A DNA stretch of 62,533 bases. It comes from a virus. The notes below the pieces were generated by a model. That model did no database searches. It was given only the letters and a program-made list of their open reading frames with translations, and was not told the origin of the DNA. The translations under genes and the position numbers were made by a program. Where the stretch lies: the IMG/VR virus record IMGVR_UViG_3300022221_000007, positions 1 to 62,533 of that record. One strand, written 5' to 3'. This document shows, piece by piece, positions 1,008 through 60,459 of this stretch (the first letter of the stretch is position 1; each line of letters opens with the position of its first letter).

Positions 1008-1607
1008 TTACTCAGATATTCCAAGAGCCTCGTTAAGACGGCTAGTGGTAAGTGCGGGGAAGTTAGCAATACCAACGCTAGGATCAGCAGCATAAGGAGG
1101 TAAGTAGCTACATCCTTCAGGCCAAACTTCTTTAAGCTGTTTAGTGGTAGTTACAGAATCAAGAATTTGTCGAGCTTCATCAAGAAGTTGATCCAGTTTA
1201 CTTTCCCATTCATCATTAGCTTTACTTTCAGCTTTTCCAGCATTACGCCATTCTTTCCACTGAACTCTAGAAATTTGCCCGATAGGGAATTGGTTATAGC
1301 TGCCATTACGCAAATATGCTTGCTTAACAGGATCCCCTTTTTCATCGTAAATTTTCATCCTGACTATTCCGCCTTGAGCAACAGCAACTGCGAAAGAATC
1401 AGATATGTTAACCAAACCAGTTGGCAAACCCTTAACCTGTTCCTGATACTTACCCATAAAACGGTTATAAATCTTAACGGCTATAGCAGATTCTTTAAGT
1501 TTTATCTGCAATTCAGTAAAAGGACGAGGATTTTTCTCAGTAAAGGCATCTCTGATTTTACTGATCATGTCGTCTCTAATACTTATGTTTAAACGAATAC
1601 TTTTCAT
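1008..1607 (-). CDS. Nmad5-like protein (putative nucleotide-modification-associated)
   Basis: A 199-aa protein with a charged helical N-terminus (MKSIRLNISIRDD) and a middle segment of short strands. The C-terminal pattern LKEVWPEG..YLPP......FPALTTSRLNEALGI resembles the end of proteins called putative nucleotide modification associated domain 5 (Nmad5). That family is tied to DNA modification by genomic association only; no enzyme activity is known to me. A ribosome binding site (CTGGAGAAAAAC) precedes the ATG. It is followed by tRNA-like elements and preceded by a structured gap. No hypermodification pathway enzymes are recognisable beside it, so the role is open. Confidence 0.5.
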   Translation of the reverse strand: MKSIRLNISIRDDMISKIRDAFTEKNPRPFTELQIKLKESAIAVKIYNRFMGKYQEQVKGLPTGLVNISDSFAVAVAQGGIVRMKIYDEKGDPVKQAYLRNGSYNQFPIGQISRVQWKEWRNAGKAESKANDEWESKLDQLLDEARQILDSVTTTKQLKEVWPEGCSYLPPYAADPSVGIANFPALTTSRLNEALGISE

Positions 1608-1931
1608 GTTTTTCTCCAGTTAATTAAATAAAAACACGGCCTTGTTTATCCCCAACTTAATGGTTCCAGGAATAGCTTAGCTGACCTTCCTGATTTAGTG
1701 GTCAGTACCATGTAGTAGCAGTACGTTGCCAGCGATCTGTATGTTCCTACCCACTCTTGCCTCTGAACAGAGGCGGTAACATACTAGTTTCTGCTTAGGC
1801 AAGCTCGCAGAAACTAATGATTTGTGCTCTATGAGGACTTTCACCCCTCTTACCGTAAGAGCTGACGGTCACTACATCCCGTGCTTATTCTGAGACAACT
1901 TATCCTCATTTAGGCCGGACCAGGAATTCTT
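1608..1931. other. Structure-rich gap with several nested stem-loops
   Basis: No gene seen. Two adjacent elements stand out. GTATGTT (1739-1745) pairs with AACATAC (1778-1784) and encloses a perfect hairpin, GCCTCT-GAAC-AGAGGC (1759-1774). Directly after it TAGTTTCTGC (1785-1794) pairs with GCAGAAACTA (1807-1816), a perfect 10-bp stem. A further TGACC/GGTCA pair lies near 1682-1705. The density suggests a structured RNA or a transcript-processing region. Confidence 0.5.
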
Positions 1932-2873
1932 TTATTTGTTTAAATCCATTACATTCATAAATGGAAATAAACCATTACCATTGCCACCACCACTCATAAA
2001 TTGAGGCATGGAAGATCCATCCCAATTCTTCATAGCTTCAGCTTTGGTAAGTTCAACTAGTTCAGGAGAAGATTTCAAAGCACTGGCCTGAGCTTTAAGT
2101 GCCGTAGCTTTAGCTTGACCTTCACGTTCAATAGCAGCAGCCAATTCAATCGACTCTACTTTAGTTTTGTGAGCTTGCGCATCAGCAGCCAATATGACTG
2201 ACTCAGCTTTACCTCGGGCATCCTGAATGGCTTTGTTAGCAGTAAAGGCAGATTCACGTTCAGCTTGTTCAGCCGTAGCTGCTCTTGCTCTTGCTGCAGC
2301 CACTTGTGCCAACTTACTTCGATAAGCATCTGAGAAAGTTAAATCAGATATTTGGAAGTCAGCGACCTGAATACCGTAGGTAGATACCGCTTCTTGAATA
2401 ACCTTAAGCACCTCAACACGAATCTCACCACGTTTATCTACTACGTCTTCAATAGAATATGCAGAGATAACAGCTTTAGCCCGGTCTTGAACCAAATTCC
2501 CCATTAAACGAGACTCGTAGTCAAAACTAGAACCAAACTGTTCATACAGCTTTCGTAAATTAGCGTCAGTACCGTTAATGCGGTGGTTAATAGTCATGGA
2601 GACACCAACAATGTTGGTACCGCCTTTTGTAGCTACTGACATCTGACTGTTAGTAGATTCGATACGGGTATCTGCAATATGAGCAGATTCAATGAAAGGC
2701 ATTTTGAAATGCAAACCAGGACCAGTAAAGCCACTAATTACGCCAAGCCGAGTTGTAACAGCACGCTGGTACTCAGAGTTGATATAAAAAGATGACATCA
2801 AGGTCACCAACAAAAACAAAGCAATTACCACATCCCGTACAGCTGAAACTAAAAGAAGTTCCTGCCGGTCCAT
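1932..2873 (-). CDS. SPFH/Band 7 (prohibitin-like) membrane protein
   Basis: About 313 aa from the internal ATG used here. A hydrophobic segment (about residues 12-32) anchors the protein. Then comes the SPFH/Band 7 domain: an EYQRAVTTRLG strand and the GPGLHFKMPFIE motif typical of prohibitin/HflK/HflC. An Ala/Glu/Arg-rich helical stalk follows (about 180-285), with a Gly/Asn-rich tail. Family members form rings on membranes and modulate proteases such as FtsH. In a phage this suggests control of host membrane proteases or of superinfection, which is inference. The frame stays open upstream to a TTG at 2915 with no good binding site. A better-placed ATG at 2929 opens another frame (see next entry). 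Confidence 0.85.
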   Translation of the reverse strand: MDRQELLLVSAVRDVVIALFLLVTLMSSFYINSEYQRAVTTRLGVISGFTGPGLHFKMPFIESAHIADTRIESTNSQMSVATKGGTNIVGVSMTINHRINGTDANLRKLYEQFGSSFDYESRLMGNLVQDRAKAVISAYSIEDVVDKRGEIRVEVLKVIQEAVSTYGIQVADFQISDLTFSDAYRSKLAQVAAARARAATAEQAERESAFTANKAIQDARGKAESVILAADAQAHKTKVESIELAAAIEREGQAKATALKAQASALKSSPELVELTKAEAMKNWDGSSMPQFMSGGGNGNGLFPFMNVMDLNK

Positions 2874-2929
2874 ATTCCGATCACTCGGGTAAGACGGATG
2901 GGGTGATTTTTCCAATAACGATTAAACAT
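2849..2929 (-). CDS. Possible leader peptide or frameshifted 5' end of the SPFH gene
   Basis: The best start signal in front of the SPFH gene (GAGGAAAAAACT before ATG) opens a 26-codon frame, MFNRYWKNHPIRLTRVIG..., not the SPFH frame. It ends inside the start region of that gene. It could be a translationally coupled leader. Alternatively, the SPFH protein really begins here and a frame change occurred by mutation, sequencing error or programmed shift. Its basic-aromatic character would suit a cytoplasmic stub ahead of a membrane anchor. Weakly supported. Confidence 0.3.
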   Translation of the reverse strand: MFNRYWKNHPIRLTRVIGIWTGRNFF

Positions 2930-3453
2930 AGTTTTTTCCTCGAAGACTAAAACAATTAATTTTTTGAAGGACTTTGGCGGGACTCGAACCCGCACACCCT
3001 AATTACGTCTAGCTGTTATAGGGAAGATAGTTACGACCATGAGCTAGGAGAGCCTACTTTATCAGCTCCCATCCATATTGGCTTAATCCACACCCCTGTA
3101 TACCAGTTCCAGCACAAAGCCCTTCAAAAAAGCCAGTGTTACGCCACTGGCATCGCATGTAATCCCCATGACGGGTCAACTAACAGCCACAATAGTTGAA
3201 TAGAAGGTTCTGTTTAACGAGCATTGGCTAAAACCGCCTCGACTTCAGTATGGAAGTTACATCCTCTCATTGAGTTAAAGAGCTGAGTAGGTTTGCTCCA
3301 TTAAACTTTTAATTCAGGACTCCCCCGTTCAAACATGACGGTGGTCGTTCCCAGGCCCGAACAGAGCCAAAAATACCGGCATATAACCGGTTAAGGTAAT
3401 CTCATAATGACCTGTTCTGTTGCCAGGTAGGTCAAACCCCTACAAACTAAATG
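2930..3453. other. Long structure-rich gap with a perfect tRNA-type T-arm
   Basis: No protein gene seen. On the minus strand a perfect T-arm (GCGGG, loop TTCGAGT, CCCGC; plus positions 2977-2993) is followed by CAAAGTC, an acceptor-like 3' end. A possible partner GGCTTTG lies near 3111-3117, followed by a D-arm-like CTG...GGTATA...CAG. This would give a molecule of about 150 nt with no clear anticodon arm. Other hairpins include GCCAGTG/CACTGGC near 3140-3163 and ACCGG/CCGGT near 3378-3395. Probably structured RNA, possibly derived from tRNA. Confidence 0.45.
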
Positions 3454-3783
3454 CTATGCAGCACGTAAAGCGTCAAGCACATCGAACATTTCAGCTTCGG
3501 TTGCCACATCAGCAAACGAATCATCGTATTCGGCATTAACCAATTCTTCACCAGTCATAGACGAAGCTTTGATTAATTCTTCAACATACCACTGCTGGCC
3601 ATCAAGGAAGTCCTTAACAGTCTTGCCTTCAGTTTCCAAGGCCTTAGCCGTAGCCAAGTTAGTCACGATCTGATCAATTTCTTCTTCAGAAAGATCAGGG
3701 CGAATGTTCAGATCCTTAATACGTTGGATCTTACGCTTGGCTTTTTTAAAGGCAGTGGCCAAAACCTGCTGATTACGTTCCAT
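3454..3783 (-). CDS. Hypothetical acidic protein, 109 aa
   Basis: The start is the ATG at 3783 (MERNQQVLATAFKKAKRK), placed by a GGAGAAACTT binding site just upstream. An in-frame ATG 48 nt further out lacks such a site. A basic N-terminal helix is followed by an acidic, helical C-terminal two thirds ending in LDALRAA. There is no membrane span or cysteine motif. It is transcribed just downstream of the phage RNA polymerase gene, with a gap containing a GAGATC-ACAT-GATCTC hairpin upstream. No family recognised. Confidence 0.65.
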   Translation of the reverse strand: MERNQQVLATAFKKAKRKIQRIKDLNIRPDLSEEEIDQIVTNLATAKALETEGKTVKDFLDGQQWYVEELIKASSMTGEELVNAEYDDSFADVATEAEMFDVLDALRAA

Positions 3784-30193: not shown

Positions 30194-32986
30194 ATGGCAT
30201 GGAACCCGTTTAAGTCAGTAGTTAATTTCTTTGTCGATGTTGTGGAAACTACTTATGAAGCCATAGTAGATGCTGTCGAATGGACTTGGGATAATATAAC
30301 TTACCCCGTTATTGAGGGAACATTCTACTTACTTGGTATAAAAGCAGAAACTGTAGTACAAGTGGATAAAATCACCACTAAGATTATGGGTGATGACGTT
30401 TCTCAAACAGTAAAGAAAACTAAAGTTAAAGCGGTTATTGAATACATATCGTCTAATGAAAGTTTTTTTAACGTATACATGAGGAACATGAATACCGCAA
30501 AAGCACAAGTCAGCGCATACCATAACTTCGGAGAGAACACTTACACCTACGGGCTCCCTACACTAACTGTTTATGGAAAAATAATGGATTTGGCAGCGGT
30601 AAAAACTGCTATTGACTTAGACCTAACTATAAATTCCACGGTAGTATCTGCTAATCAGGTAGCTCCACTACTTCGACAAAAAACTGAATACTATTTGCAG
30701 GAAACTGCCCCCTACAATTATAAACCCGGACAAAACCTATTAAGCTATAATGATTCCTGGGGAAACAGTAGGGAATGGGGTTTTGATTCCGTTGTAGATA
30801 ATATTACGGACTACACCGTAAGTATCTCCAGAACAGCTACGAGAAACCACTTCTGGATTTATGGACCAGGAACGGTAGTCGAAGGGGATAGTGCTACCTA
30901 CACAATCTACTCGAGTAGTTTGATACCTACCGGTAAATCGTTACCTATCAATTTAATTTATAGTGGTACAGCAGTAGATGGGGTAGATTTCACATCCGTT
31001 GCACAAGTAACAATGCTGGCTGATACTGATTCTGTTCAGGTAGTCATACCGACTACTGAAAATACTGCTCCTCACGTAGCTCGTAATCTCATTGTTGAGA
31101 TTGGCAGCTTAGATAATGCCTTAGATGTTTTTGATGATCCAAGTATTTACCCTTCACTTAAATCAGTAGATACCAATATAACAGACGATGAAGGTGTTAT
31201 TTTAACAATGCCTTATGGTTTAGTTAACGAATCTGATACCAGTATTACCATTCCTGTGAAACTAGAAAATGCAGCAGCTGGGGCTTTTACTGTTGATTAC
31301 AGTTTTGTGGATGGAACAGCTGTTGGTGTTGTAGGTGGAGGTTCTGGGAGTGACTACGACTCAACTCCTGGGACTTTAAACTTTGCAGGTACTGGAAGTG
31401 AAATACAAAATATTGTCATACCTATCACTGTAGATGCCCTGGATGACGACCAAGAAGTATTTACCGTAAACTTGACTAACTGTTCAGACCCGGCAGTAAC
31501 GCTAACTAGCACAAGCATAGTGATATGGGATGGTACTTCTGATCCAATTACCGGACCTGTAGTATTGAACGACTCTTTTACTATTGCTCCAATAGTCAAT
31601 AAGAACGTAGTTATGGCTAAATACCATGAGGCAGCTAACCCAGCTACTGATTGGTATCTATGGAGATATGATCAAGATTTAGGTACTTACCCAGACGTAA
31701 AAGCCAAGGAGGAAACCTTTACTGACCTGGACATGCTGCCTGTAGCTATTCTTAGAAAGAATAAAGTAAATATTGTTCCAGAAGACCCATCTTACAACCC
31801 GACTAATCAAATGTTGAAAAGACTTCAAATGAACTTAAAGGATGTGTTGGCCAACATAGATTCTGAAGATAACCCACAACCGGGTGTTGATGATTGCTAC
31901 ATAAACTTTGCTGTCAGTCCTCAAGACAATAACAGAATGGTATCCAGGTTAATGTTTAGGATGTTCTACATGTTCCATGTGGATCTTCTTCTCGTTAGTG
32001 ATACTGGAGAGTACAAAGCAACTTTTGTTGAGCAAGATATTAACAATGCTTTTATATGGTCTAGTTTTGAGTGGAATCCGGATCAAGTAGGTGACTTAGG
32101 AATTCCTATTGGTGACTACAAACATACCGTAGTCCCAAAAAGTGGTTCAGGAGAAGATGAAATACCATCCAAACTAATAATGCAATACCAAAAAACAGCC
32201 AACAGCTATGACGAAATAGTGATAGGGGCGTTAAACTCAGTAACGGCTATATCTTATGGTACTCACCATAATGTTGTACTAAAAACAATTACCGATAGTG
32301 CATTAACCTTACCAGTGTCTTACCACATACTTAAAGAATTAACTTTTGAAGAACAACTTGAAGTATATGGATACATGTTAAGGTTAGACTTCACAGCTAT
32401 TGAGGTAACTCATTTAGAGTTTTATGAAACACAGTTATTTGCAGATTTTTTTGAATTTGCAATGATTGTAATAACCATACTTTCTCTAGGTTCCGCAGGG
32501 TCATTAGCGGCAATAGCCACACAACTAGTTACCCAATATTTACTAATGGAACTAGTGATGTTTGTGGCAGAAGAAACGGGAAATGAAGTTCTCGCAGCAG
32601 TAGTTGGTGTAGTAGCCGCAATAACTTTAGGAAACACCAGCGGGTTGAAACTTGGTAAGTTGGTGAATGCTGAAGACCTACTTAAGGTAACCACTAACTT
32701 TGCGCAGAACTACTCTATTGCAGCTGGTGTCAGTATGGAAAAGTTGCAAGGAGATATGGAAGAATTTACCAGTGTGTATGAGCAACGTCAGAAAGACTTT
32801 GAAGATGTTGAAGAAGAGTTGGAGTTAAATCTTGATGCTACATTTCTTGTAGGACTTCAGTCAGTAAACACTCAGCTATACAAAGCCGTCCAAAACCAAT
32901 ATGATTATGACACCATCTTCAATGGTCCGGACATTAACGTATCCCGGTTCGTAGACACTCAGTTGAGCAAGTCTCAAATTATTTAG
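30194..32986 (+). CDS. Large virion protein with two Calx-beta-like domains
   Basis: 930 aa. An aromatic amphipathic N-terminus (MAWNPFKSVVNFFVDVV) is followed by two Calx-beta-type repeats at about 230-330 and 345-450 (GPGTVVEGDSATYTIY...GTAVDGVDF; LVNESDTSITIPVKL...DYDSTPGTLNF...TVDALDDDQEVFTVNL). A long mixed region follows, then hydrophobic segments near 755-820 and a helical C-terminus. It lies where N4 places gp54. Calx-beta modules bind calcium and often mediate adhesion. The hydrophobic part could enter the host envelope on ejection, which is inference. Confidence 0.75.
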   Translation: MAWNPFKSVVNFFVDVVETTYEAIVDAVEWTWDNITYPVIEGTFYLLGIKAETVVQVDKITTKIMGDDVSQTVKKTKVKAVIEYISSNESFFNVYMRNMNTAKAQVSAYHNFGENTYTYGLPTLTVYGKIMDLAAVKTAIDLDLTINSTVVSANQVAPLLRQKTEYYLQETAPYNYKPGQNLLSYNDSWGNSREWGFDSVVDNITDYTVSISRTATRNHFWIYGPGTVVEGDSATYTIYSSSLIPTGKSLPINLIYSGTAVDGVDFTSVAQVTMLADTDSVQVVIPTTENTAPHVARNLIVEIGSLDNALDVFDDPSIYPSLKSVDTNITDDEGVILTMPYGLVNESDTSITIPVKLENAAAGAFTVDYSFVDGTAVGVVGGGSGSDYDSTPGTLNFAGTGSEIQNIVIPITVDALDDDQEVFTVNLTNCSDPAVTLTSTSIVIWDGTSDPITGPVVLNDSFTIAPIVNKNVVMAKYHEAANPATDWYLWRYDQDLGTYPDVKAKEETFTDLDMLPVAILRKNKVNIVPEDPSYNPTNQMLKRLQMNLKDVLANIDSEDNPQPGVDDCYINFAVSPQDNNRMVSRLMFRMFYMFHVDLLLVSDTGEYKATFVEQDINNAFIWSSFEWNPDQVGDLGIPIGDYKHTVVPKSGSGEDEIPSKLIMQYQKTANSYDEIVIGALNSVTAISYGTHHNVVLKTITDSALTLPVSYHILKELTFEEQLEVYGYMLRLDFTAIEVTHLEFYETQLFADFFEFAMIVITILSLGSAGSLAAIATQLVTQYLLMELVMFVAEETGNEVLAAVVGVVAAITLGNTSGLKLGKLVNAEDLLKVTTNFAQNYSIAAGVSMEKLQGDMEEFTSVYEQRQKDFEDVEEELELNLDATFLVGLQSVNTQLYKAVQNQYDYDTIFNGPDINVSRFVDTQLSKSQII

Positions 32987-33076: not shown

Positions 33077-33496
33077 ATGGTAGAGTCTCTAGCAGATCTA
33101 TATAAATTTGGTAGCGGAAGAGAAGCCGGACTAGCTGAACTTGGCACAAACCAAATAGGATTACCTCAAGGTAATGGTGTTTGGCAAGGTATGAAAAACT
33201 TCGGAGGTAAGACCGGAGATTTCTTGACTTCAGACAAATTTGCCAACGGTATGCAAGGCATCACAAGCTTAGCTGGTGCTCTTAGTGCTTACAAGCAACT
33301 AGGCCTTATGGAAGATCAGTTTGATCTTAATAAAGGGTTAGCCAATAGAAACCTTTCAAACCAGGCAGCAACACTGAACCCTCAACTACTTGATCGGGCA
33401 AAAATGCAAGCTCAAATGTACGGTAATGCACCGGGGTCAACAGGCTATTCTTTAGCTGAGTCTAGTGCTCCACGTGTTGATGGTTCTGCAATATAA
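33077..33496 (+). CDS. Small internal virion protein, 139 aa
   Basis: It is preceded by a CCCGG-ACAT-CCGGG hairpin and a GGGAGGAGTG binding site. Residues 60-95 (GMQGITSLAGALSAYKQLGLMEDQFDLNKGLANRNLSNQ) resemble the T7 gp14-like pattern of core proteins that sit at the base of the ejection complex. It is followed by the larger internal proteins, as in T7 gp14-gp15-gp16. Confidence 0.6.
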   Translation: MVESLADLYKFGSGREAGLAELGTNQIGLPQGNGVWQGMKNFGGKTGDFLTSDKFANGMQGITSLAGALSAYKQLGLMEDQFDLNKGLANRNLSNQAATLNPQLLDRAKMQAQMYGNAPGSTGYSLAESSAPRVDGSAI

Positions 33497-33514: not shown

Positions 33515-35299
33515 ATGGCTACTCCACTACTTTGGCGTGATGCCCAACTTCAAAATACCAGCTTAAACCCCAATGCAGCATTGGGTGTTGCGTCTGGAGC
33601 TGCTGCTGCCTTAAGTAAAAATATCGCAGATCGAAAACGGTTAGCGCTTGCGCAGGAAAAACTACTTTCTGATGAAGCCTTTAGAAACAAACAACTAGCT
33701 TCTAATGAAGCTCACAGAAACCGTTTGCAAGACTGGACGGAAGGTGCTCAACAACGTGAAATGGATCTTACCTCTCGCAGAGCTAAAGACGCTCAGAAAC
33801 TGCTAAGTGGGTTTGAGGATGAAGCTCGAATAAACATTGTGGATGTAAATCCTGAAGAACTGGTAGCTCTTAAAAACCAGGAATTAGCCGGTGGTCCTTT
33901 GTTTAGAGAAAGTGGTCCTTCACAAGGCAACCGTGTTGTAAGCCCACAAGACACTTCAGGTAGATTCAGACTTGAAGACTATGACCAATTAATGTCAGAT
34001 TCTCGTAACCTTGTTAACCAGGCTAATGCTGAAACTCGTGCTAATCCTTCACTATTTGTGGACCCTAATACTATGAAGCGTCAGGTTACTCAGCAAATGC
34101 GTGAGAAAGGGTACAAAGACGAAAACATATCACCATTGTTGGGAAGTTACTTTGCTGAACATTTCCCAACTGCAGACCCTGCCCTAGCTCAGGAAGTAAT
34201 CAAAGGAATCAACGCAGAAAAGACTGCAGCTGAGTTATTTGGGGATAAGTTTGTAGCTGATGCTAAAAGTGGTAACTTTGGTTCTGGTTCTGGAGGATCA
34301 AACTCAGAAATGCACAAGGACTTCACTTCAGTAGATAACTACCTTGAAGCGAGAAAGTTCAAAAAAGGAAGTGAAGGCTTCTTTGATAATTGGTTCGATG
34401 AAGATGTTTATGAAGACGATATTCGTACCTACACAACAAGAATGGCTAACTTGAAAGTTCCACCTCCAGTAGCTCTAAGTCTGCTAGATGGAATGATTAA
34501 AGATAAGGAACTTTCTCAAGATCAGTTCTTAAGCGACGAAAATTTTGGAAAACTAGCAGCAGCAGCTCAAATCCGTATGGGTGGTATGGGTTCTGGTCAA
34601 ACAGGAAATCCTGCTGACTTAATAAAATTGTTCAATATGGGTCAGGAAGATAAGAAAAACAGAATTGGACAAGCATTAGCCAGTACCCAAATGAGACAGG
34701 TAACTCCCGAACAACGACGAGCTTCAGTGTTTGGAAACGAAGCTGTTCAACTCGGTCGTCGTGATCAGCCATCTGATCCGGTAGTTGACATCTCTAATGA
34801 CCAAGGAAGTATTGATAGCGGAGTAGACCAACTACTCGGTGTACAACCAGAAGAGGTAACTCAACCAGGTAAATTATCTGCTGTTAACCAACGTATTGAA
34901 GATGTTAAAGCAGAAAAAGCTGCTGATCGTGCTGAGCAAATAGCTAATCTTCAGGAATTTGCTAGACAGTATGCTCAAGAAGGGGATACCCAGGCAGAGC
35001 AACAAACATTAGATAAAATTGAAGAGCTGAAAAATTTTGGCAATACCCCTAAAGAAAAGGTTGCTGATAAGCCAGTACTTGAGAGTGGTTCTTTCTTTAA
35101 AAACCTAGGAAACAAAAGTGACTCTGTTTTTAGTCCTAGAGTTCTAAGAGAGTTGCAACAGAAACCTACTTCAGCTTTGAAGCAAATGCTGAAAACAAAT
35201 AAGTACACTCCTGAAGTATTAGCAGAGCTGAAGGAAATTATTAAATCGAGAGAATCTCAGAAATCTTCGGGCAATAGACTCTTTGGCGAACCGCAATAA
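33515..35299 (+). CDS. Internal virion protein, 594 aa
   Basis: Helical, Gln/Ala/Asn-rich protein. N-terminal LGVASGAAAALSKNIADRKRLALAQEKLL and repeated SNEAHRNRLQDW-type heptads suggest a coiled rod, comparable to T7 gp15 or N4 gp52-type core proteins. The C-terminal 100 residues are basic. It probably assembles with the polymerase proteins inside the head. No enzymatic motif seen. Confidence 0.6.
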   Translation: MATPLLWRDAQLQNTSLNPNAALGVASGAAAALSKNIADRKRLALAQEKLLSDEAFRNKQLASNEAHRNRLQDWTEGAQQREMDLTSRRAKDAQKLLSGFEDEARINIVDVNPEELVALKNQELAGGPLFRESGPSQGNRVVSPQDTSGRFRLEDYDQLMSDSRNLVNQANAETRANPSLFVDPNTMKRQVTQQMREKGYKDENISPLLGSYFAEHFPTADPALAQEVIKGINAEKTAAELFGDKFVADAKSGNFGSGSGGSNSEMHKDFTSVDNYLEARKFKKGSEGFFDNWFDEDVYEDDIRTYTTRMANLKVPPPVALSLLDGMIKDKELSQDQFLSDENFGKLAAAAQIRMGGMGSGQTGNPADLIKLFNMGQEDKKNRIGQALASTQMRQVTPEQRRASVFGNEAVQLGRRDQPSDPVVDISNDQGSIDSGVDQLLGVQPEEVTQPGKLSAVNQRIEDVKAEKAADRAEQIANLQEFARQYAQEGDTQAEQQTLDKIEELKNFGNTPKEKVADKPVLESGSFFKNLGNKSDSVFSPRVLRELQQKPTSALKQMLKTNKYTPEVLAELKEIIKSRESQKSSGNRLFGEPQ

Positions 35300-35308
35300 G
35301 GAATCAGT

Positions 35309-38227
35309 ATGGGTATTTTTGACAATCTGGTAGCTGCACAACAAGATCCTTACAGCGATATTCTTGCGCCTAAGAAAACTCTGTTGCAAACAAAACAGGA
35401 ATTATTGGCCAGTAAGATGGTCGAGAAAGAAGATAACTTCGATCCTAACATCGGCTCTCTAGCTGCCTACGACGAATTAACTCGTCAGGGTGGTGAAGAT
35501 ATAGGGTTACTGGACTTAGCTGAAGCCAGCCTATATAGAGGAGCTGGTAACATTGCTGATGTTGGTAAAGATGTCAGTAATGCCATATTTGGAAGTGAGT
35601 TTGATTCTGCTGCTGATACCGGATACTCAAATCCTGAACTTGCAGACATAGCTGCCGGGGTATCTCCGGAAGATCGTCAAGCTTTCCAGGCTAAACAGGG
35701 GCAAGTACTTACTGATGTAGCTGAAGGTGATTACTGGTCTGCAGCTAAGAATGCTGCTGCTGTGGGTTTACCTACTTTGGCTGATAGTGCTGCTTCCCTT
35801 GCTGAAATTGCTATAGGAACAGCTGCTGCCCCTATAGCCGGTGCAGGGGCTGGTTTACTGGCCAAGAAAGCAAAAGATATAACTAAGGGTATTGTTGGTA
35901 TTAGCAACGCTTACAGCAAGGCTGAAGAGGCTGTAGCTGCAAAGAAAGCTGCTAAGACTCTTAGCAAAAGTATGGAATTCCTACAGAATCGTAAGAAAGA
36001 TGCAGCTCGAACAAGCTTAATGACAGCTGACATGGTTCAGCAACAACGTAACGAGTATAAAGAACAGAATAACGGTGAAGAACCATCTGCAGCTCGTTTA
36101 GCTACCATGGTAGTGACCACATCTCTGCTCGCATCTCTTGAAGTACCGATCATCAACAAACTATTTGTGCCAAAAGTAGTTGGTAAAGCCAAAGTACTAG
36201 ATAAGGCTGGTAAGCAGGTTACTGACCCTAAACTTCGTGAACAGTTTGTTGCCGAAGCAAAGCGTATGATGAACTACGTTGAGGAAGGTACTCTCGAGTC
36301 TATTGGTAAGAGAGTTCTGTCAGGTACCGGGAAAGTCTTTGCAGCTGGCGGAGCTGAAGCAGCACAGGAATATGCTCAGACCTGGGGTGAGATCCTAAGC
36401 GTTAAAGTAGGTAATGATGAAGCTCAAGGTTTAGTTGCTTCCATGATCGAAGAAATTACCGATATGGAAAATAGAAACCAGGCAACTACCGGTGCATTCT
36501 TAGGTGGAGCTGCTGGTGGAGCAGGTAAAGCTGTTATCTCTGGACCAGCAGTTGCCGGTGGAGCAATATTCGATACCGGTAAAGGAATTACTAAAGCTGC
36601 AGCTAAACAACTGGATGTACGTAGGTTGGCTAAAGGCAATAAGCTCATATCTGCTGAAAAACAGGAAGAGATCCGACAAGATCATGAACTTCGTGAAAAA
36701 GTTCATAAAGAGCTCGAAGCTGATAGAGCTCAGAAAATTGATGCACTCAGCACCGCTAAGAGTATTGATGACGTAACTGACGAAGATATACGAAGAGACT
36801 TAGTTAAGTTTGCCAATAACCAGAACCTTAATGATCCGGAAGTATTCGAGAACGCTTTACACAAGACAATACGAAATTTCGGAGGCCAGGTTAAAGCATC
36901 AGCAGTTAAACTTCAGGCTGTTACTGCAGGTAAGCAAGCCAAGGAAGCAGGAACTGCTGTTGTCAGAGAAATCGGTAAGAAGGTTAATGTCTCAAAAGAA
37001 GATATTGAACGGGTTGCCAAAAAAGCTAAAGCGCTCGGTATTGAGGCTATTGAGGAAATTAAAGATTTCGAGAACTCAGGAACAATTGGTTTAGTAGAAG
37101 CTGCTATCGAATACGGGGGTGTAAAAGGTAAAGAAGGCCAACGTATGCTGGTTAAAGCTGTTAAAAACAGCAGCCCAGCTGTTATCGAAAGTGTGGCTAA
37201 AGCCATTAACAATCAACTTCCGGATACTGCGATAGAACTGCGTAAACTAGCTGCTTCACAGGAAAAATTCCTAGAGCAGGAAGAACGTCGTAATGCGTCA
37301 TTGATCGATTATGAATCCATTCCTGAAACTATTAGGGAAATGGCTGCTGTTGGTAAAATACATAAAGGAAGTATTTCCTCTGCTTTATATGAAATTTTGG
37401 ATACTGCTGCTGCAAGGTTTGAAGATACCAAATCGATAGACACCATGGAAAAGGCTATAGCAGCTTATGAAAATAGTGCTTCTACGGAAGACTTGGACAA
37501 GTATTCTGCCAGGTTAAAATCGGTGAAGAAAAAGCTGGCTAATTCCCGTAGAGAAATTGATGACACAGTAATCAAGAAAACAGCAGCTAAGATTAAAGAA
37601 ACAGTTACTGAAGCAGTAGATAAGTTTACCCCTGGAACTGTTGAAGCCTTTAATAAATTAGGCAAAAAAGGTGAAGAGGCTATTGAGTCTTTAGACCTAA
37701 TACTTTCTGATGTTGTGAGTGGTCAAAAACGTACTCGACGTAAGATTACAGATCCTGGTGATGACAGCATCAAATACACAGTAAACTTAACGGAAACAGG
37801 GGTTAAGTTCGCTGAAGGTTTAATGGCAATGTCCACGGACACTAAAGGAGCTGTTGACGAAGATGCTGCGCGTAAAGCCCTAGAGATGGCTGCTGATGAT
37901 TTAGCTGAGGCTTTAGTCAGCACACCCGCACTGGTAGTTCATTTAGCTAATCATTTTGGAGTATCAGATCCTAAAGCTGTCATGGCCTTATTGGTTAATG
38001 TGGTACCTACACTCAGCACAAAAGAGCGTTACAGCAAACTTTTAGAAGTAGCCGAAAAAGCTTTAAAACCTGCGGAAGAAATTCAAGTAACAGAGGTGGA
38101 GGAAACTGGTAAGGTTACAGTAGACAAAAATGATGATAATGTTCCATACCAAGACACTAAAGCATCTAAAGATCTTCGTGAGATATTTATCAACGAAGTA
38201 TTAATGAAAGCCAAACTTTGCCCGTGA
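35309..38227 (+). CDS. Virion RNA polymerase N-terminal part encoded as a separate gene
   Basis: 972 aa, close in length to the N-terminal domain (about 1000 residues) of the N4 virion RNA polymerase, and of the same composition: a short acidic start, Ala/Gly-rich hydrophobic stretches near 145-195 and 385-420 (GAFLGGAAGGAGKAV), then long amphipathic helices. It ends 7 nt before the catalytic gene. Both frames are closed by stops within TGAGTAA, so no simple readthrough joins them. In N4 this region is thought to assist DNA and polymerase entry. It could instead be a distinct internal protein (gp51 position). Confidence 0.65.
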   Translation: MGIFDNLVAAQQDPYSDILAPKKTLLQTKQELLASKMVEKEDNFDPNIGSLAAYDELTRQGGEDIGLLDLAEASLYRGAGNIADVGKDVSNAIFGSEFDSAADTGYSNPELADIAAGVSPEDRQAFQAKQGQVLTDVAEGDYWSAAKNAAAVGLPTLADSAASLAEIAIGTAAAPIAGAGAGLLAKKAKDITKGIVGISNAYSKAEEAVAAKKAAKTLSKSMEFLQNRKKDAARTSLMTADMVQQQRNEYKEQNNGEEPSAARLATMVVTTSLLASLEVPIINKLFVPKVVGKAKVLDKAGKQVTDPKLREQFVAEAKRMMNYVEEGTLESIGKRVLSGTGKVFAAGGAEAAQEYAQTWGEILSVKVGNDEAQGLVASMIEEITDMENRNQATTGAFLGGAAGGAGKAVISGPAVAGGAIFDTGKGITKAAAKQLDVRRLAKGNKLISAEKQEEIRQDHELREKVHKELEADRAQKIDALSTAKSIDDVTDEDIRRDLVKFANNQNLNDPEVFENALHKTIRNFGGQVKASAVKLQAVTAGKQAKEAGTAVVREIGKKVNVSKEDIERVAKKAKALGIEAIEEIKDFENSGTIGLVEAAIEYGGVKGKEGQRMLVKAVKNSSPAVIESVAKAINNQLPDTAIELRKLAASQEKFLEQEERRNASLIDYESIPETIREMAAVGKIHKGSISSALYEILDTAAARFEDTKSIDTMEKAIAAYENSASTEDLDKYSARLKSVKKKLANSRREIDDTVIKKTAAKIKETVTEAVDKFTPGTVEAFNKLGKKGEEAIESLDLILSDVVSGQKRTRRKITDPGDDSIKYTVNLTETGVKFAEGLMAMSTDTKGAVDEDAARKALEMAADDLAEALVSTPALVVHLANHFGVSDPKAVMALLVNVVPTLSTKERYSKLLEVAEKALKPAEEIQVTEVEETGKVTVDKNDDNVPYQDTKASKDLREIFINEVLMKAKLCP

Positions 38228-38234
38228 GTAAATT

Positions 38235-41200
38235 ATGCCTAACTTTTGTATTCCAGAGTCACAAATAGAGCAACTTCTTCGTAAAGTTGATATGAAAACT
38301 ATCAATGAATCTCAAGATAAAGAAGCTCGCATTAATATTTTTGATATTACTGCAGACATGGTTCGTGAGGTTATCACCAGCGGAAAAACAACGGCTATCG
38401 ATGATAAGCTTATATCCAGACCAGTACGCCAGAAGCTTAATGACGCTCTGAAGATTGACCCGGTTATGGATAAAAAAGTTAAAGCCTTTATCCAAAACCT
38501 ATCTGTTCAACACGCAGTAGAAACATCTGATAACCCTAATGTGAATAAGGCTGTTGCAGATAGAACGCTTAGGCAGGGCGGTACAGCCTTAAAAGAGATC
38601 ATGGATTCCATTGCGGGTGAGATAAATAAAGCAGCTAATAACGGTCTTAAAGTTACTGAAGTCAGTAACAAAGGACACCTACCAAACCTACCTCTTCACC
38701 GAGTTGCAGCCTCAATCGGCCGTAAAATCATGTACACCCAAGGTTTACGTTTTAAGAAAGCTGGTGGTGAGCAAGATCAGAATCTTAGTGCCTGGGTTGA
38801 AACCATGTATTACGCAACAGGCATGTCAGCTATTGAGAACCTGGAGAAAAACGGGTTCCTGACAATACATGAAGCTGGTACCGGTAAAATGGTAATTAAA
38901 GATTACCTGGACTCAATCGACTCTGAGCAAAAATTTGGTCCTGAAGATAAGGTAACTGATAGCATTCCCTCATTGGAACTGAACTTAGAAGCCTTTGGTG
39001 TGGAAACAACCGCAGCTAAACCTGCTAAAGAGATGGCTTTCTTTACAGATTTTGGTGCTGATGTTAGAGGGACTGAGTTAGGTGCCTATGACCAGGTTCT
39101 TAGAGCTATTGGCCTACTGTCACAACCTGCAACCTTCACCATGCCTAACATTGGTGAAGATGGCCCTGCTACTGAAAGTGATCGACATAACAATGATGTT
39201 TATGATCCCGGTGAAGTTATCAACAAAGCTCGTAAGGAAATTGGTGAAAACCCTACGTTCCTTCAAGGTAGTATTCATTCATTCTTCCAACAGCTTCATG
39301 AGCATCTTAAAGATGAAGATATGAGTGCTGCTCAGTGGTTGTCAGGTATTGAGGATAAAACTAAGCTGCAGAACCTATTCGGCTTAGAGCCCTACAGTGA
39401 TGCCTTAGCAGGGCAAGCCAGTGCAGCAGGAAGAAAGCTTTCTAAAAGCACTCCTCTAAATGATGTTATCGAGTATTATGACAGGCTTAAAGGCGATAGC
39501 CCGGTTCCTATCTACATGAATATGTTTGCCGGCAGAAACGCTCGTCTTTACTACGATAACAGCATATTGAATCCTCACAGCTCAAAACTTATCAGACATG
39601 CTATGGCGGTAGATCCCTATACCGTTAAGGTAGATTCTGATGCTTTCAAGTTCATGGTCGGCAAGGTAGCTATTCTTTTAGGCATGGAAGAAGATACCGG
39701 TGCGGTTATGGGTAATGGCAAAGTTACCGAACAAAGTAAAAAAGTTGACCGGGCTCTTGAAGCCTACATGAAATTTAGTTCTGCAGGGTCACTTAATAAA
39801 AAATTAGTTCAGCTAACAAAAATGAGTGAAGAATTTCCAAAGTTAGATTTTTCAGAACTAGTGTCTACCCTGGGGGCAGTACAGGATATCCAGGAGGGTC
39901 TGCTATCTGGTGAAGTAACATCTACTTACATGGTAAGTACTGATGCCACAGCTTCTGGTGGTCAGCTTACTTTCATGCAGGCTATTGGAGCAGACACCAA
40001 TAACGAGGAAGACTACGTTGAGCTAATGAAACAGCTTGGACTCTTCAAAGGCGAGAAGGAGGGTTCTCTTGAAGGCGTAGAAGACGTATATGGGATACTT
40101 AAAAGACGGTTAGAATTCTTTACTGAGAATAAGCAAGATCCTGATGCTCAGTCAGTAGCTGATACCCCAAAAACTGCAGCAATACGATCTACCGTTAAAA
40201 AGATCCAAAAAGTTCTGTTTGAAAATGACATAAGAAATATGTCAAAAATTCCAACTATGACTTTTATCTACCAGCAGACTAAAGGTGGTGCCAGGTCTTC
40301 AATGTCTAAAGACTTCGCTGACATGATTATTAAACAGCTTAGAAACCCTGTGATATCAAAAGATTTCAATGAACTAATTGATTTGGTTAATGAAATACTT
40401 GGCCATGATGAGAAATATACTACGCACCAAAGTTCTTATAAAAAACTGTTAAAGAACAGAGACTTAGATCTTGAACTTCGCACGAAAATTGCTGCTTCAG
40501 GTACTCCTGACTTTTTATATGACACACTAACGTCATCACTGACTAACAAGTACCTTAAAAAGTACCAAAATCGTGCTAAACGCATATTCGAGTTAGTTGA
40601 TAGTGAAGATGCTCTTAAAAATATAAGAGTAATGCCTGCCAGCTACGTTTTGTCTAATCCTTTAAAAGAGGGTGAGAGCTATACGTTGGAACAGTATGAA
40701 AAATATGGTTTAACCATGGGCAAGCAGTTTGAAGTACTTAACAATGTTGCCGGTGTTGATGTGCTTACTCGACCTGACAAGAATAGAGATACTGTTATGG
40801 GTGTGTCTTACATTCATGGAGCAGATACCTCTAATTTGTATCGATCTACTGAGGGTCTACCCACTAAGCACAAAACTGGACTAATCGTTGTACATGATGC
40901 TGTTTACTCAAGCCCTGAGTTGGTGATGGAGTTTGAGAAGAACTATGTTGAGGAAAATCGTCAGTTAGCGCTTAACTACGATATTCATGAGCAGGTTTTA
41001 AAATCTGTTGCTGCTTATGGTGGAAATACGTTGACTAGTAAAGCAAACTATACTAATCTAGTTGCAGAAGTCGAGGCAAGCAAAGCCCGTAAACAGCAAC
41101 TTTTGAAGGATAGTGAGAATGGCTACAATACTGAAACAACTAGCGTTATTGGGGACAGAATTGATTTTGAAGGAATTGACACAAAAAGTCCGTCAAGAAA

Positions 41201-44200
41201 AACGAGCACTGGAACCCAAACCAGTACGCAAGGTAAAGGCCAAGCGAAAAGCGGTAAACGCACTGCACAAAATGGCAAGCCAAAAACCAAAGCGTTCTCA
41301 AAACAGAGTGCATTAGAAATAATGGAGTCCTTATCTGAGGACTCTACTCTTATTCAGAAATTCCTATCTGCCAACCCTTCCGGTGTTAAAAAAGGTGATA
41401 CACCTCAGTACAGCACCAAAACTGATGTAATCACCATTGCCGGAGTAGATCCAAGAACAGGTAAAAAAGCTACCAAGAAAAAGCTGGTAGAACTTGTTGA
41501 ACATGAAGTTGTTCACAGCCTGACTTCTGGGATCGTATCCGATTGGGTATCAAACAAAAAATCCAGTGTTTCTGCAAACATGAATCTCGCGTATATCGAT
41601 AAGGCTGTTAAACGCCTAAGCCGGTTACGTGACCATGGTGAATTGAAGTTACCTAAAGCAGCAGCTGAAAGGGTTAACTACGTTTTAAACTCTCTTGAGG
41701 ATGATATAAGAATATCTGAGTTTATTGCCATAATGAGTACAGAACCTGAAACAGCTAAAGCCGTTTATAAGGTTTTAGGGAATGACCGTGGCAATCTCGA
41801 TAAGATCATTGAAAAGGTGGTAGCTAAGGTAAGAGAAATTTTAGCAACTATTACTGAAAAAGACTTTGAAACTTACAAGGTAGATAGTGAGAAATTGTAC
41901 TCAGCTGTTAACCAAGTCATTCAAGATGGTCAGTCTAGTCGTGAAGGTGATATTAACGCTCACAGAGCCTTAATGTCCTTGAGCAGCAATACAGAGCTAT
42001 TCGCAGCAGACCCTAACAACATTCTTAAAGAAGCCAGAGGAGCCGTTAACTACATAAACGCCGCAGTGGTTAGAAACATTAATGATCCAGCTGTTCGTAA
42101 AGCAGGTGATCTCACCAAAGCTATGGACAGCTACTTGAAAGTTAACTCTCCTATGTACCGTAGAGCCCTTCAACGCTTAAAGGGCATATACGACGATTCA
42201 GAGGCGTTACAGAGCTTAGTCCATAAAATCACAAATGCTGATATTAACAGTGAAAAGAAAAATGAAGTCCAATCGCTGTTTGTTGCATTAAGAGCTACTA
42301 AAAATGAGGTAATCAGTAAAGAGCTTGAAAAATTCAGTGCTATTACCAGTAAAATGTCTGATGAAGAAAAAGAAGCTTTCTTTGACTTCACGCACAAAAT
42401 GGCAATGCAGGACTACTTTCTGTTTGCTGAAGAAGTTACCGACATCGATGCTGAGATAGCTGAGATTGAAGAAATGCATTTTGACAAGCAGCAAGTGGAG
42501 TCTTTAGAGTCTATTGTCAGCATGAACGTAGATGATGAAGTTACTATGCGTACTCACTACAATGTAGATTCAGTAGGGTTCTCAGGAGAACTTAAAAATC
42601 ATGCCAGAAAATTGGTAGTTCTAAAATCTATCAAAAAGCTTGGCGAAGACCGGTTTAACTCGATGAAAGAAAATACTGAGTTAATGGAGCTAATCCGGGA
42701 TAACACCCTGGCTCATGAAGCGTTAATCGCTGAAGGTAGTCTTCAGAATAGTATGGTTCGAGATCACAAACTAAAAGATACTTACGCTGAACCAATAACA
42801 GCTATTGCTATCACTATGGAAGATGCTGATAAGTTCAGTTACACGGAAAAGTCTGGTTGGACAATGGTAGTTAAACCTACAAAAGATAGGTTGGGGGTGG
42901 TTTACAGAAAAGAAATTGACGGGACTTACCAGGAAGGGATGTTTACCGACATCAGAACTGAGAGTGGCGACATTACTGTAAAGGCTAAGCACAGAGACAT
43001 GCCTGGTGTGGTAAAAGTAGGTGACCGGTATAAGCTGATTATCTCTCAGAAAGACAAGGAAAAAATGGGATTAGTTAAAGATGCTTCTCAGAGCTTGGTT
43101 AGAAGCATGGCTCACACCATGACTATTAAAGAATCTGAGGGTATCCGGAATAAGCTACTGGAAAAAGATACTTATTGGGATATGAACGAAAAGAACATGG
43201 AAGATTTAAGAACTATTATTATGGACCCTAAACGGGATCACCCATGGTTCTTAGGAGCTAAAGAGGGAGTTATTTATGATGATTTACCCGCAAAAGTAAA
43301 AGCCCGGTATATGCCAATTGCTTCTACTAAACTTTCTGATTCTGCTAACTTTGACCAAAAAATTCAGTATGTCCGTAAAGACATAAGTTACTGGTTAGTT
43401 GGAGCAAAAGAAGAGTCATTAGCTAAGGATCCAAAACTTAAGTGGGCATTGCGAATCACTAAGGACTTAATAGCAGGGGCTAAAATCGGGATGGTAGTTA
43501 CTAACCCGGCTAAGATTTTGGCGGATAATATGTCTAACGTAGCTTACCTGGGTGTTATGGGAGTTGATCCATTAACAATACAGAAAAACTACCGGGAAAT
43601 CAGTAAGCAGTATAACGATTATCAGAAAGCTAAAAACATTCTGAATAACCTTCGAGTTAAGGCTTATGCTAATCCTAAAAAATATGGCAATCAGATAAAG
43701 CAGATGGAACGTAAATTAAAAGAAATGCCGGCGAATGGATTTGTCGAAAGAGGTTTTGTAAGTTCCATGGGTTCTGAACTGGTTATGCAGACGAATGATC
43801 CATCTTCAGGATTCAAGAGTGATATTGATACAGTTCTGAAAACAGTACTCCAGGACAAGTCAGGCAAGCATAACAAGGTAGCTAAATTCCTAATGGACTT
43901 TTCTAAGTATGGGAATGTTGGAATGGAAGACTTTTTAGAAACCTGGGCTAAACCTTTTGGAAAACTGGATTCGACACAAGTTATAGAGAGCGAACTGGAA
44001 AGAATGGCTGAAAGACTGAGACACATTAAGTCTGAAGACGATGTAGTTTCCTATATGCACCAGTACTTAAACAGTCCTGATAGTGAATTCGTTAAGCTTG
44101 GAAGTCACATGACGGATCTAACGGATATTTTAGCAAAAGAAACTTACTACAGATATTTAGTAGAAGAAGGAATGGATGCTAAGAAAGCGGAACTGGAAGT

Positions 44201-44501
44201 TATTGATTCATTTCCGGATTATAAGGAAGGATTGCCAACAAGAGTTAAGCAACTAAGTGATGTGGGTATTTTGATGTTTCCTACTTACTGGCTTAGAGTC
44301 CAGAAAGCAATCTACCGAATGGCTAAAAATAAGCCAGTTAGTTTTGGTACGGAAATGGTAATTGAAGAGATGGCTGAAATTGAAGCACCTACAATATGGG
44401 ATGCTAATATTTGGAATAAAGCTACCACGTTCCATGGCCTATTCCACACCCCTTGGCAAAATATTGGGGTTAACAGTTTAATACCTAAGTACATCTACTA
44501 A
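38235..44501 (+). CDS. Virion RNA polymerase, catalytic chain with embedded zincin domain
   Basis: 2088 aa. The polymerase core lies in the first half: TxxGR-type region AGRNARLYY...NPH near 430, motif A STDATASGG with Asp570, motif B Arg667-Lys671-Tyr679 with exactly T7 spacing (627/631/639), motif C HDA with Asp888. Then a MPTase-PolyVal-like zincin: HEVVH at 1090-1094 and EFIA near 1162. A long helical C-terminal region (1200-2088) has no known motif and in N4 is needed for packaging. It is injected with the DNA in N4 and transcribes early genes from hairpin promoters. Start ATG lies 7 nt after the preceding stop, with a weak GTGAG signal. Confidence 0.88.
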   Translation: MPNFCIPESQIEQLLRKVDMKTINESQDKEARINIFDITADMVREVITSGKTTAIDDKLISRPVRQKLNDALKIDPVMDKKVKAFIQNLSVQHAVETSDNPNVNKAVADRTLRQGGTALKEIMDSIAGEINKAANNGLKVTEVSNKGHLPNLPLHRVAASIGRKIMYTQGLRFKKAGGEQDQNLSAWVETMYYATGMSAIENLEKNGFLTIHEAGTGKMVIKDYLDSIDSEQKFGPEDKVTDSIPSLELNLEAFGVETTAAKPAKEMAFFTDFGADVRGTELGAYDQVLRAIGLLSQPATFTMPNIGEDGPATESDRHNNDVYDPGEVINKARKEIGENPTFLQGSIHSFFQQLHEHLKDEDMSAAQWLSGIEDKTKLQNLFGLEPYSDALAGQASAAGRKLSKSTPLNDVIEYYDRLKGDSPVPIYMNMFAGRNARLYYDNSILNPHSSKLIRHAMAVDPYTVKVDSDAFKFMVGKVAILLGMEEDTGAVMGNGKVTEQSKKVDRALEAYMKFSSAGSLNKKLVQLTKMSEEFPKLDFSELVSTLGAVQDIQEGLLSGEVTSTYMVSTDATASGGQLTFMQAIGADTNNEEDYVELMKQLGLFKGEKEGSLEGVEDVYGILKRRLEFFTENKQDPDAQSVADTPKTAAIRSTVKKIQKVLFENDIRNMSKIPTMTFIYQQTKGGARSSMSKDFADMIIKQLRNPVISKDFNELIDLVNEILGHDEKYTTHQSSYKKLLKNRDLDLELRTKIAASGTPDFLYDTLTSSLTNKYLKKYQNRAKRIFELVDSEDALKNIRVMPASYVLSNPLKEGESYTLEQYEKYGLTMGKQFEVLNNVAGVDVLTRPDKNRDTVMGVSYIHGADTSNLYRSTEGLPTKHKTGLIVVHDAVYSSPELVMEFEKNYVEENRQLALNYDIHEQVLKSVAAYGGNTLTSKANYTNLVAEVEASKARKQQLLKDSENGYNTETTSVIGDRIDFEGIDTKSPSRKTSTGTQTSTQGKGQAKSGKRTAQNGKPKTKAFSKQSALEIMESLSEDSTLIQKFLSANPSGVKKGDTPQYSTKTDVITIAGVDPRTGKKATKKKLVELVEHEVVHSLTSGIVSDWVSNKKSSVSANMNLAYIDKAVKRLSRLRDHGELKLPKAAAERVNYVLNSLEDDIRISEFIAIMSTEPETAKAVYKVLGNDRGNLDKIIEKVVAKVREILATITEKDFETYKVDSEKLYSAVNQVIQDGQSSREGDINAHRALMSLSSNTELFAADPNNILKEARGAVNYINAAVVRNINDPAVRKAGDLTKAMDSYLKVNSPMYRRALQRLKGIYDDSEALQSLVHKITNADINSEKKNEVQSLFVALRATKNEVISKELEKFSAITSKMSDEEKEAFFDFTHKMAMQDYFLFAEEVTDIDAEIAEIEEMHFDKQQVESLESIVSMNVDDEVTMRTHYNVDSVGFSGELKNHARKLVVLKSIKKLGEDRFNSMKENTELMELIRDNTLAHEALIAEGSLQNSMVRDHKLKDTYAEPITAIAITMEDADKFSYTEKSGWTMVVKPTKDRLGVVYRKEIDGTYQEGMFTDIRTESGDITVKAKHRDMPGVVKVGDRYKLIISQKDKEKMGLVKDASQSLVRSMAHTMTIKESEGIRNKLLEKDTYWDMNEKNMEDLRTIIMDPKRDHPWFLGAKEGVIYDDLPAKVKARYMPIASTKLSDSANFDQKIQYVRKDISYWLVGAKEESLAKDPKLKWALRITKDLIAGAKIGMVVTNPAKILADNMSNVAYLGVMGVDPLTIQKNYREISKQYNDYQKAKNILNNLRVKAYANPKKYGNQIKQMERKLKEMPANGFVERGFVSSMGSELVMQTNDPSSGFKSDIDTVLKTVLQDKSGKHNKVAKFLMDFSKYGNVGMEDFLETWAKPFGKLDSTQVIESELERMAERLRHIKSEDDVVSYMHQYLNSPDSEFVKLGSHMTDLTDILAKETYYRYLVEEGMDAKKAELEVIDSFPDYKEGLPTRVKQLSDVGILMFPTYWLRVQKAIYRMAKNKPVSFGTEMVIEEMAEIEAPTIWDANIWNKATTFHGLFHTPWQNIGVNSLIPKYIY

Positions 44502-60231: not shown

Positions 60232-60459
60232 TTATACCTTAAAAAATTCTTTCATACCACCAGTACCATGAAGAGAAGCACCATCAGATAAACGAATTGC
60301 TGTAGGGATACCTCGAACACGGTGTTTTTGAACACGTTCAGCATCTTCAGCAGCCATAACAAACTCAAACTTAACTCCGTTATTTTTAGCGAAGTCTTTC
60401 ATAGTCCCACAGTGAGCACAGTCTTCTGTAGCTGCACCAAAAATTAAAAAATCTGACAT
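60232..60459 (-). CDS. Thioredoxin/glutaredoxin-like protein
   Basis: 75 aa. The motif CAHC at residues 14-17 and GIPTA with the cis-Pro near 51-53 define a small thioredoxin fold. Phages use such proteins as reductant for ribonucleotide reductase or as polymerase factor (T7 uses host thioredoxin). No reductase gene is visible here. Binding site in the AT-rich stretch upstream of the ATG. Confidence 0.8.
   Translation of the reverse strand: MSDFLIFGAATEDCAHCGTMKDFAKNNGVKFEFVMAAEDAERVQKHRVRGIPTAIRLSDGASLHGTGGMKEFFKV

Follow-up and report, generated by a model that had tools for sequence, protein, structure and literature searches.

An N4-type virion RNA polymerase encoded in two genes, with lone cysteines at the cut ends of both chains

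The virion RNA polymerase (vRNAP) of coliphage N4, gp50, is a single chain of 3500 amino acids in which an N-terminal domain (NTD; residues 1-907), a low-complexity linker of about 100 residues (907-1006), the polymerase itself (1007-2101), another linker (2102-2123) and a C-terminal domain (CTD; 2124-3500) follow one another (PMC12633501). In a virus record of 62,533 bases from a marine phage, the whole of which is called the window here, the chain is instead cut at the first of these linkers, with a cysteine on each side of the cut. This locus raises the question of whether one polymerase has genuinely been divided between two genes and, if so, how two chains might act as one. The features concerned are as follows:

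35309..38227, + strand: vRNAP chain 1, the N-terminal domain, 972 aa, ATG start; homologue of N4 gp50 residues ~1-1000
38235..44501, + strand: vRNAP chain 2, single-subunit polymerase and C-terminal domain, 2088 aa, ATG start; homologue of N4 gp50 residues ~1010-3500
38225..38237, + strand: junction TGAGTAAATTATG, comprising the chain 1 stop, an in-frame TAA ahead of chain 2 and the chain 2 ATG
39543..40898, + strand: residues 437-888 of chain 2, with the catalytic motifs

An earlier note on this DNA had described a 972-aa and a 2088-aa gene lying 7 nucleotides apart, with a junction that closes both frames, and the open reading frames were found exactly so. At the junction, GCCCGTGAGTAAATTATG, the TGA at 38225-38227 ends the frame of chain 1, and the TAA at 38229-38231 shuts the frame of chain 2 ahead of its own ATG at 38235, the second gene standing in a +1 relation to the first. 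Since there are stops in both frames, the two reading frames cannot be fused by an error of one base or by a simple frameshift. Given the 7-nt spacing, translation of the chain 2 gene is probably coupled to that of chain 1.

To what proteins do the two products correspond? The reference profile was built from 15 intact Schitoviridae vRNAPs of 3062-4093 amino acids. The profile of the chain-1 family (four sequences) is co-linear with the N-terminal domain of these proteins (hhalign 93.7-94.7%, E 2e-7 to 6e-8), reversed and column-shuffled control profiles scoring 0.0-0.4%, and hhalign gave no match of the same family to gp51 or to the polymerase/CTD profiles. The chain-2 family matches the polymerase plus CTD, at positions 1172-3426 of the full profile (hhalign 99.9%, E 3e-36), and residues 1742-2046 of chain 2 match phrog_2206, a C-terminal domain profile. 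Six catalytic residues of chain 2, namely R437 in the TxxGR region, D570 in motif A, R667, K671 and Y679 in motif B and D888 in motif C, are invariant in 35 aligned vRNAPs. The best PDB match found by Foldseek for residues 1-1001 of chain 2, modelled with AF2, was the N4 mini-vRNAP 2PO4 (E 9e-14), the model being of moderate quality (pLDDT 61, TM ~0.44 to N4) and its input alignment having included N4 itself; the model of chain 1 was too poor for use (pLDDT 46.8, pTM 0.25). Profiles of the split clade alone matched no vRNAP among PDB sequences by hmmsearch, and N4 was reached from this clade only through profile-profile and fold comparison. At this level of comparison the two genes together are confirmed as encoding an N4-type vRNAP. 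The profile-profile alignment that the earlier note had suggested thus bears out its assignment of the 972-aa product to the vRNAP N-terminus; the 2088-aa gene does begin the catalytic part, and the chain is interrupted where the polymerase domain starts, close to the N4 linker, in line with the split near a domain boundary that had been proposed. The role of ejection domain given there to the 972-aa chain would hold by analogy with N4. Residues 1090-1094 of chain 2 (window 41502-41516), in the CTD, form a zincin-like motif, HEVVH; HExxH also occurs in the CTDs of Alteromonas phage PT11-V19 and of the IMG/VR contigs L009 and L146, and EEVVH or EEVAH in phage AD45 and contig L147.

The genes upstream were compared with the Schitoviridae operon order gp53-gp52-gp51-gp50:

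30194..32986, + strand: gene in the gp53 (tail plug) position, 930 aa, with a Calx-beta domain (Pfam E 8e-11); PHROG_2220 profile match
33077..33496, + strand: small gene of 139 aa in the gp52 position, product free of cysteine; placed by synteny
33515..35299, + strand: 594-aa gene in the gp51 position, product free of cysteine; placed by synteny only

Gene order and sizes fit this operon, with a profile match (phrog_2220) for the gp53-position gene only; profile comparison detected no gp51 homology for the 594-aa gene. The window shares with coliphage N4 gp50 the NTD, the T7-like single-subunit polymerase motifs, the CTD, by gene order a place downstream of genes in the gp53, gp52 and gp51 positions, and an almost complete lack of cysteine. 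No near DNA relative of the chain and its flanks was present among 50,697 phage records, and no tRNA was found in the window. Elsewhere, 133 bases at window 2976-3108 are 78% identical (E 3e-18) to an unannotated site of Synechococcus phage S-CRM01.

Relatives with the same cut were found at the protein level. In tblastn searches chain 2 was matched over its whole length by Alteromonas phages vB_AmeP-R22Y (PP212876; 37.6%) and vB_AmeP_PT11-V19 (OP751378; 36.4%), in both of which chain 1 matches the gene directly upstream; these two phages have the same split, junction cysteines and an identity of 38-40% in the polymerase chain. PT11-V19 encodes 1000 + 2082 aa separated by a 3-nt gap in the same frame, and R22Y 1008 + 2083 aa with a TAATG overlap in a -1 relation. 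Scans of IMG/VR with either window protein alone gave no match; with alignments as the query they succeeded for the polymerase chain, and the lineage L008-L010 proved to have the same split (969 + 2046 aa where complete, 3-nt gap). A scan of genome contigs found no relative. R22Y has been published solely with its 2083-aa vRNAP, and the accessible part of its open-access description (PMC11705849) mentions neither a missing NTD nor cysteines.

Split vRNAP genes have been explained differently: for pSb-1 and AD45-P1, Zheng et al. 2023 proposed read-through or a gene-calling error (PMC10654107), and AD45 is marked in GenBank as a 'potential frameshift'. Could the two frames of the window likewise yield a single protein through readthrough or frameshifting, or result from a sequencing error within one gene? 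The stops that close both frames at the window junction speak against this, as do the ATG and the terminal cysteine that each chain has of its own. Moreover, the boundary between NTD and polymerase persists at 30-48% identity although the frame relation takes three different forms, which rules out a sequencing error as well as any single conserved recoding signal; no one recoding event would serve the same-frame, +1 and -1 arrangements and the TAATG overlap alike. We regard such an explanation as extremely improbable. Judging from these comparisons, the split vRNAP is real and common to a small group of phages, the two cultured members of which infect Alteromonas, and the split itself gives a known protein in a new form.

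The cysteines of the two chains set them further apart from the known pattern. That N4-type vRNAPs lack cysteine has been on record since Kazmierczak et al. 2002 (cited in PMC2784036), the absence being explained by the need to pass via the tail and the oxidising periplasm; the trait is in print for the vRNAPs of N4, roseophage, LUZ7/LIT1 and Achromobacter phages, and is tied there to entry through tail and periplasm. All 15 reference vRNAPs are free of cysteine, as are the gp51-position proteins. Among 92 intact IMG/VR vRNAPs, 86 have none, and their 322,526 residues hold 10 cysteines, as against some 2,400 expected at 0.75%, the frequency in 196 control proteins; the first 30 residues of each vRNAP were omitted from this count because start codons had been assigned mechanically. 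The other open reading frames of the window contain 1.03% cysteine, spurious frames included. Two rare exceptions to the cysteine-free rule come from one and the same metagenome: the vRNAP at L029:5742-14807 has a single internal cysteine at residue 1350, and the sequence at L027:9899-16393 has one at residue 508 of its second reading frame. N4-type vRNAPs are otherwise single chains of ~3000-4000 aa without cysteine; the window has 972 + 2088 aa and one cysteine per chain, both at the junction:

38219..38221, + strand: TGC codon of Cys971, the second-last residue and only cysteine of chain 1
38247..38249, + strand: TGT codon of Cys5, the only cysteine of chain 2

The corresponding lone cysteines are residues 997/1000 and 6 in PT11-V19, 1004/1008 and 6 in R22Y, and 967/969 and 3 in L009, so that the Cys971 column is invariant in the four-member NTD family and the Cys5 column in the four-member polymerase family. 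Against the open-access literature searched, the lone junction cysteines are a new finding, and one that goes beyond the earlier note.

The surprising part is their recurrence where the protein is cut elsewhere. Phages AD45-P1 and P2 encode 2495 + 1409 aa, cut at the polymerase/CTD linker, with a lone cysteine third from the end of the first chain and another at residue 4 of the second. Contig L147, 50-58% identical to AD45, is cut between polymerase and CTD into 2802 + 1394 aa, its lone cysteines being the last residue of one chain and residue 4 of the next. AD45-P1 (NC_021532) and L147 thus resemble the window in having two chains with lone terminal cysteines but differ from it in the linker that is cut. 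In the contigs L146/L065 there are three chains, of 2344, 970 and 1271 aa: the first is NTD plus polymerase, the second an SF1-type helicase (AAA_19 and AAA_30, E 1e-15) and the third the CTD. The cysteines of L146 lie at 2343/2344 in chain 1, at 3 and 970/970 in chain 2 and at 3 in chain 3, so that the middle chain alone has one at both ends, as a linear string of three chains would need. The helicase chain, which is SF1/PIF1-like and is encoded between the polymerase and CTD genes at L146:7080-9992, seems to add a further module to the ejected polymerase. L151 is a further AD45-type contig whose end precedes the junction, and L036:585-8333, from a different lineage, encodes a polymerase-plus-CTD chain of 2582 aa with a single cysteine, Cys7, and no NTD partner on its contig.

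Taken together, 8/8 junctions have a cysteine in the last 5 residues upstream and in the first 6 downstream, with no other cysteine in the chains; the eight represent about three deep lineages and are not independent events, and which gene breaks were genuine splits was judged by the author from the sequences without blinding to cysteine. In the control proteins a cysteine occurs within the first 7 residues in 5/196, within the last 5 in 3/196 and at both ends in 0/196. Six further candidate splits (pSb-1, L027, L032, L037, L053 and L054) were set aside on account of a frameshift, with coding-like sequence running on in shifted frames, of ambiguous bases or of a lone in-frame stop. Five of these error-like breaks (pSb-1, L027, L032, L037 and L054) have no cysteine pair. 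The sixth, L053, has two cysteines near the end of its first reading frame, which ends in CC; coding-like sequence goes on in two other frames, which points to indels, and it was judged to be frameshifted after the cysteines had been seen. The 'potential frameshift' region of AD45-P1 (L011:20624-32348), with its terminal cysteines, most likely contains two real genes, of 2495 and 1409 aa.

In a phylogenetic tree the four members cut between NTD and polymerase form one clade and AD45 with L147 another, both with full support, and L146 stands on a long branch. The tree fits one origin of splitting or several; since the cut sites differ, at least two distinct fissions are needed.

Why should cysteine be placed at the cuts of a protein that otherwise lacks it? 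What the sequence itself shows is that the polymerase is split, that both parts are homologous to the vRNAP, and that lone cysteines mark the junction and recur at other cuts. From this we infer that a disulfide forms, that both chains are packaged and threaded, and that reduction brings about release; the cysteines at the cut ends probably link the pieces covalently again, which is more specific than the earlier note's statement that two separate proteins 'must assemble in the head'. As a whole, we consider it likely that the vRNAP of the window, encoded by two genes cut at the NTD/polymerase linker, is packaged as both chains, disulfide-joined into a string and, once in the cytosol, reduced. 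Both the NTD chain and the polymerase chain would enter the head, and an interchain disulfide between the cysteine near the NTD C-terminus and that at the N-terminus of the polymerase chain would restore one N-to-C string, in which the NTD could go ahead of the polymerase through the narrow channel of tail and envelope. The reducing cytosol would then cut the bond and free the polymerase-CTD chain from the membrane-bound NTD. It counts against this reading that the bacterial cytosol, where heads are assembled, is itself reducing; oxidation would have to wait until after lysis or take place in the periplasm.

Other uses of the cysteines were weighed. The chains could stay separate, held together non-covalently or ejected in turn like T7 gp14/15/16, with the cysteines serving homodimerisation or anchoring. 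Several separate proteins are indeed ejected by other phages, and crassvirus virions contain three separate RNAP-associated proteins, gp47/gp49/gp50 (PMC10172136); these are likewise multi-chain virion transcription proteins, described as a large multi-subunit RNAP and likened here to the split vRNAP by description only. Homodimerisation, however, predicts neither a head-to-tail placement nor two cysteines in the middle chain alone, whereas the cysteines are confined to the cut ends, on both sides of every cut, and occur at both ends only in the middle one of three chains. We consider this possibility unlikely. Alternatively, the two cysteines might bind metal with other residues or enable a ligation, by a split intein or native chemical ligation, and a cysteine near the start of the downstream chain does recall expressed protein ligation; yet it stands at positions 3-6 and not at position 1, Pfam reveals no intein domain in the window chains, and two cysteines are few for a metal site, which makes this reading very improbable. 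Re-joining by disulfide accounts for where the cysteines stand better than do homodimers, metal binding or ligation.

As to redox genes, the window has one candidate:

60232..60459, - strand: glutaredoxin-like protein, 75 aa, with CAHC and GIPTA; weak Pfam match

This protein is a possible redox partner of the junction cysteines. Elsewhere, AD45 has a thioredoxin and the L147 contig a glutaredoxin domain; no redox genes were found in the records of PT11-V19, R22Y, L008 and L146, and thioredoxin is also present in one phage with an intact vRNAP. A redox gene consistently accompanying the split was sought and not found, which counts against the disulfide reading. Since some split phages have redox proteins and others do not, oxidation by the host or the environment is likelier than a dedicated phage enzyme.

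In N4 the NTD has been proposed to remain in the membrane, with the linker tethering the polymerase to it, and the CTD acts as an inhibitor of the polymerase (PMC12633501). By analogy, reduction of a joint at the first linker would release the polymerase, and reduction at the second would relieve it of its inhibitor. The wider proposal, which we hold to be about evenly balanced between true and false, is that of a modular, redox-cleavable ejection string of two or three chains, with an SF1 helicase in one lineage, joined head to tail by disulfides between terminal cysteines. Its joints would hold while the string is threaded and open in the host cytosol, a cut in the NTD linker freeing the polymerase from its membrane anchor and a cut in the CTD linker freeing it from the autoinhibitory CTD.

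Surveys that demand vRNAPs of >2500 aa (PMC10654107) would miss this split architecture, and behind at least one GenBank 'frameshift' there is probably a genuine gene boundary. The split forms offer a testable rule, namely that cysteine flanks the cut on either side and is absent elsewhere. They would also open to test how a polymerase of >300 kDa passes through a channel of ~35 A and whether this needs continuity of the chain, as well as whether release of the NTD and CTD is required for early transcription.
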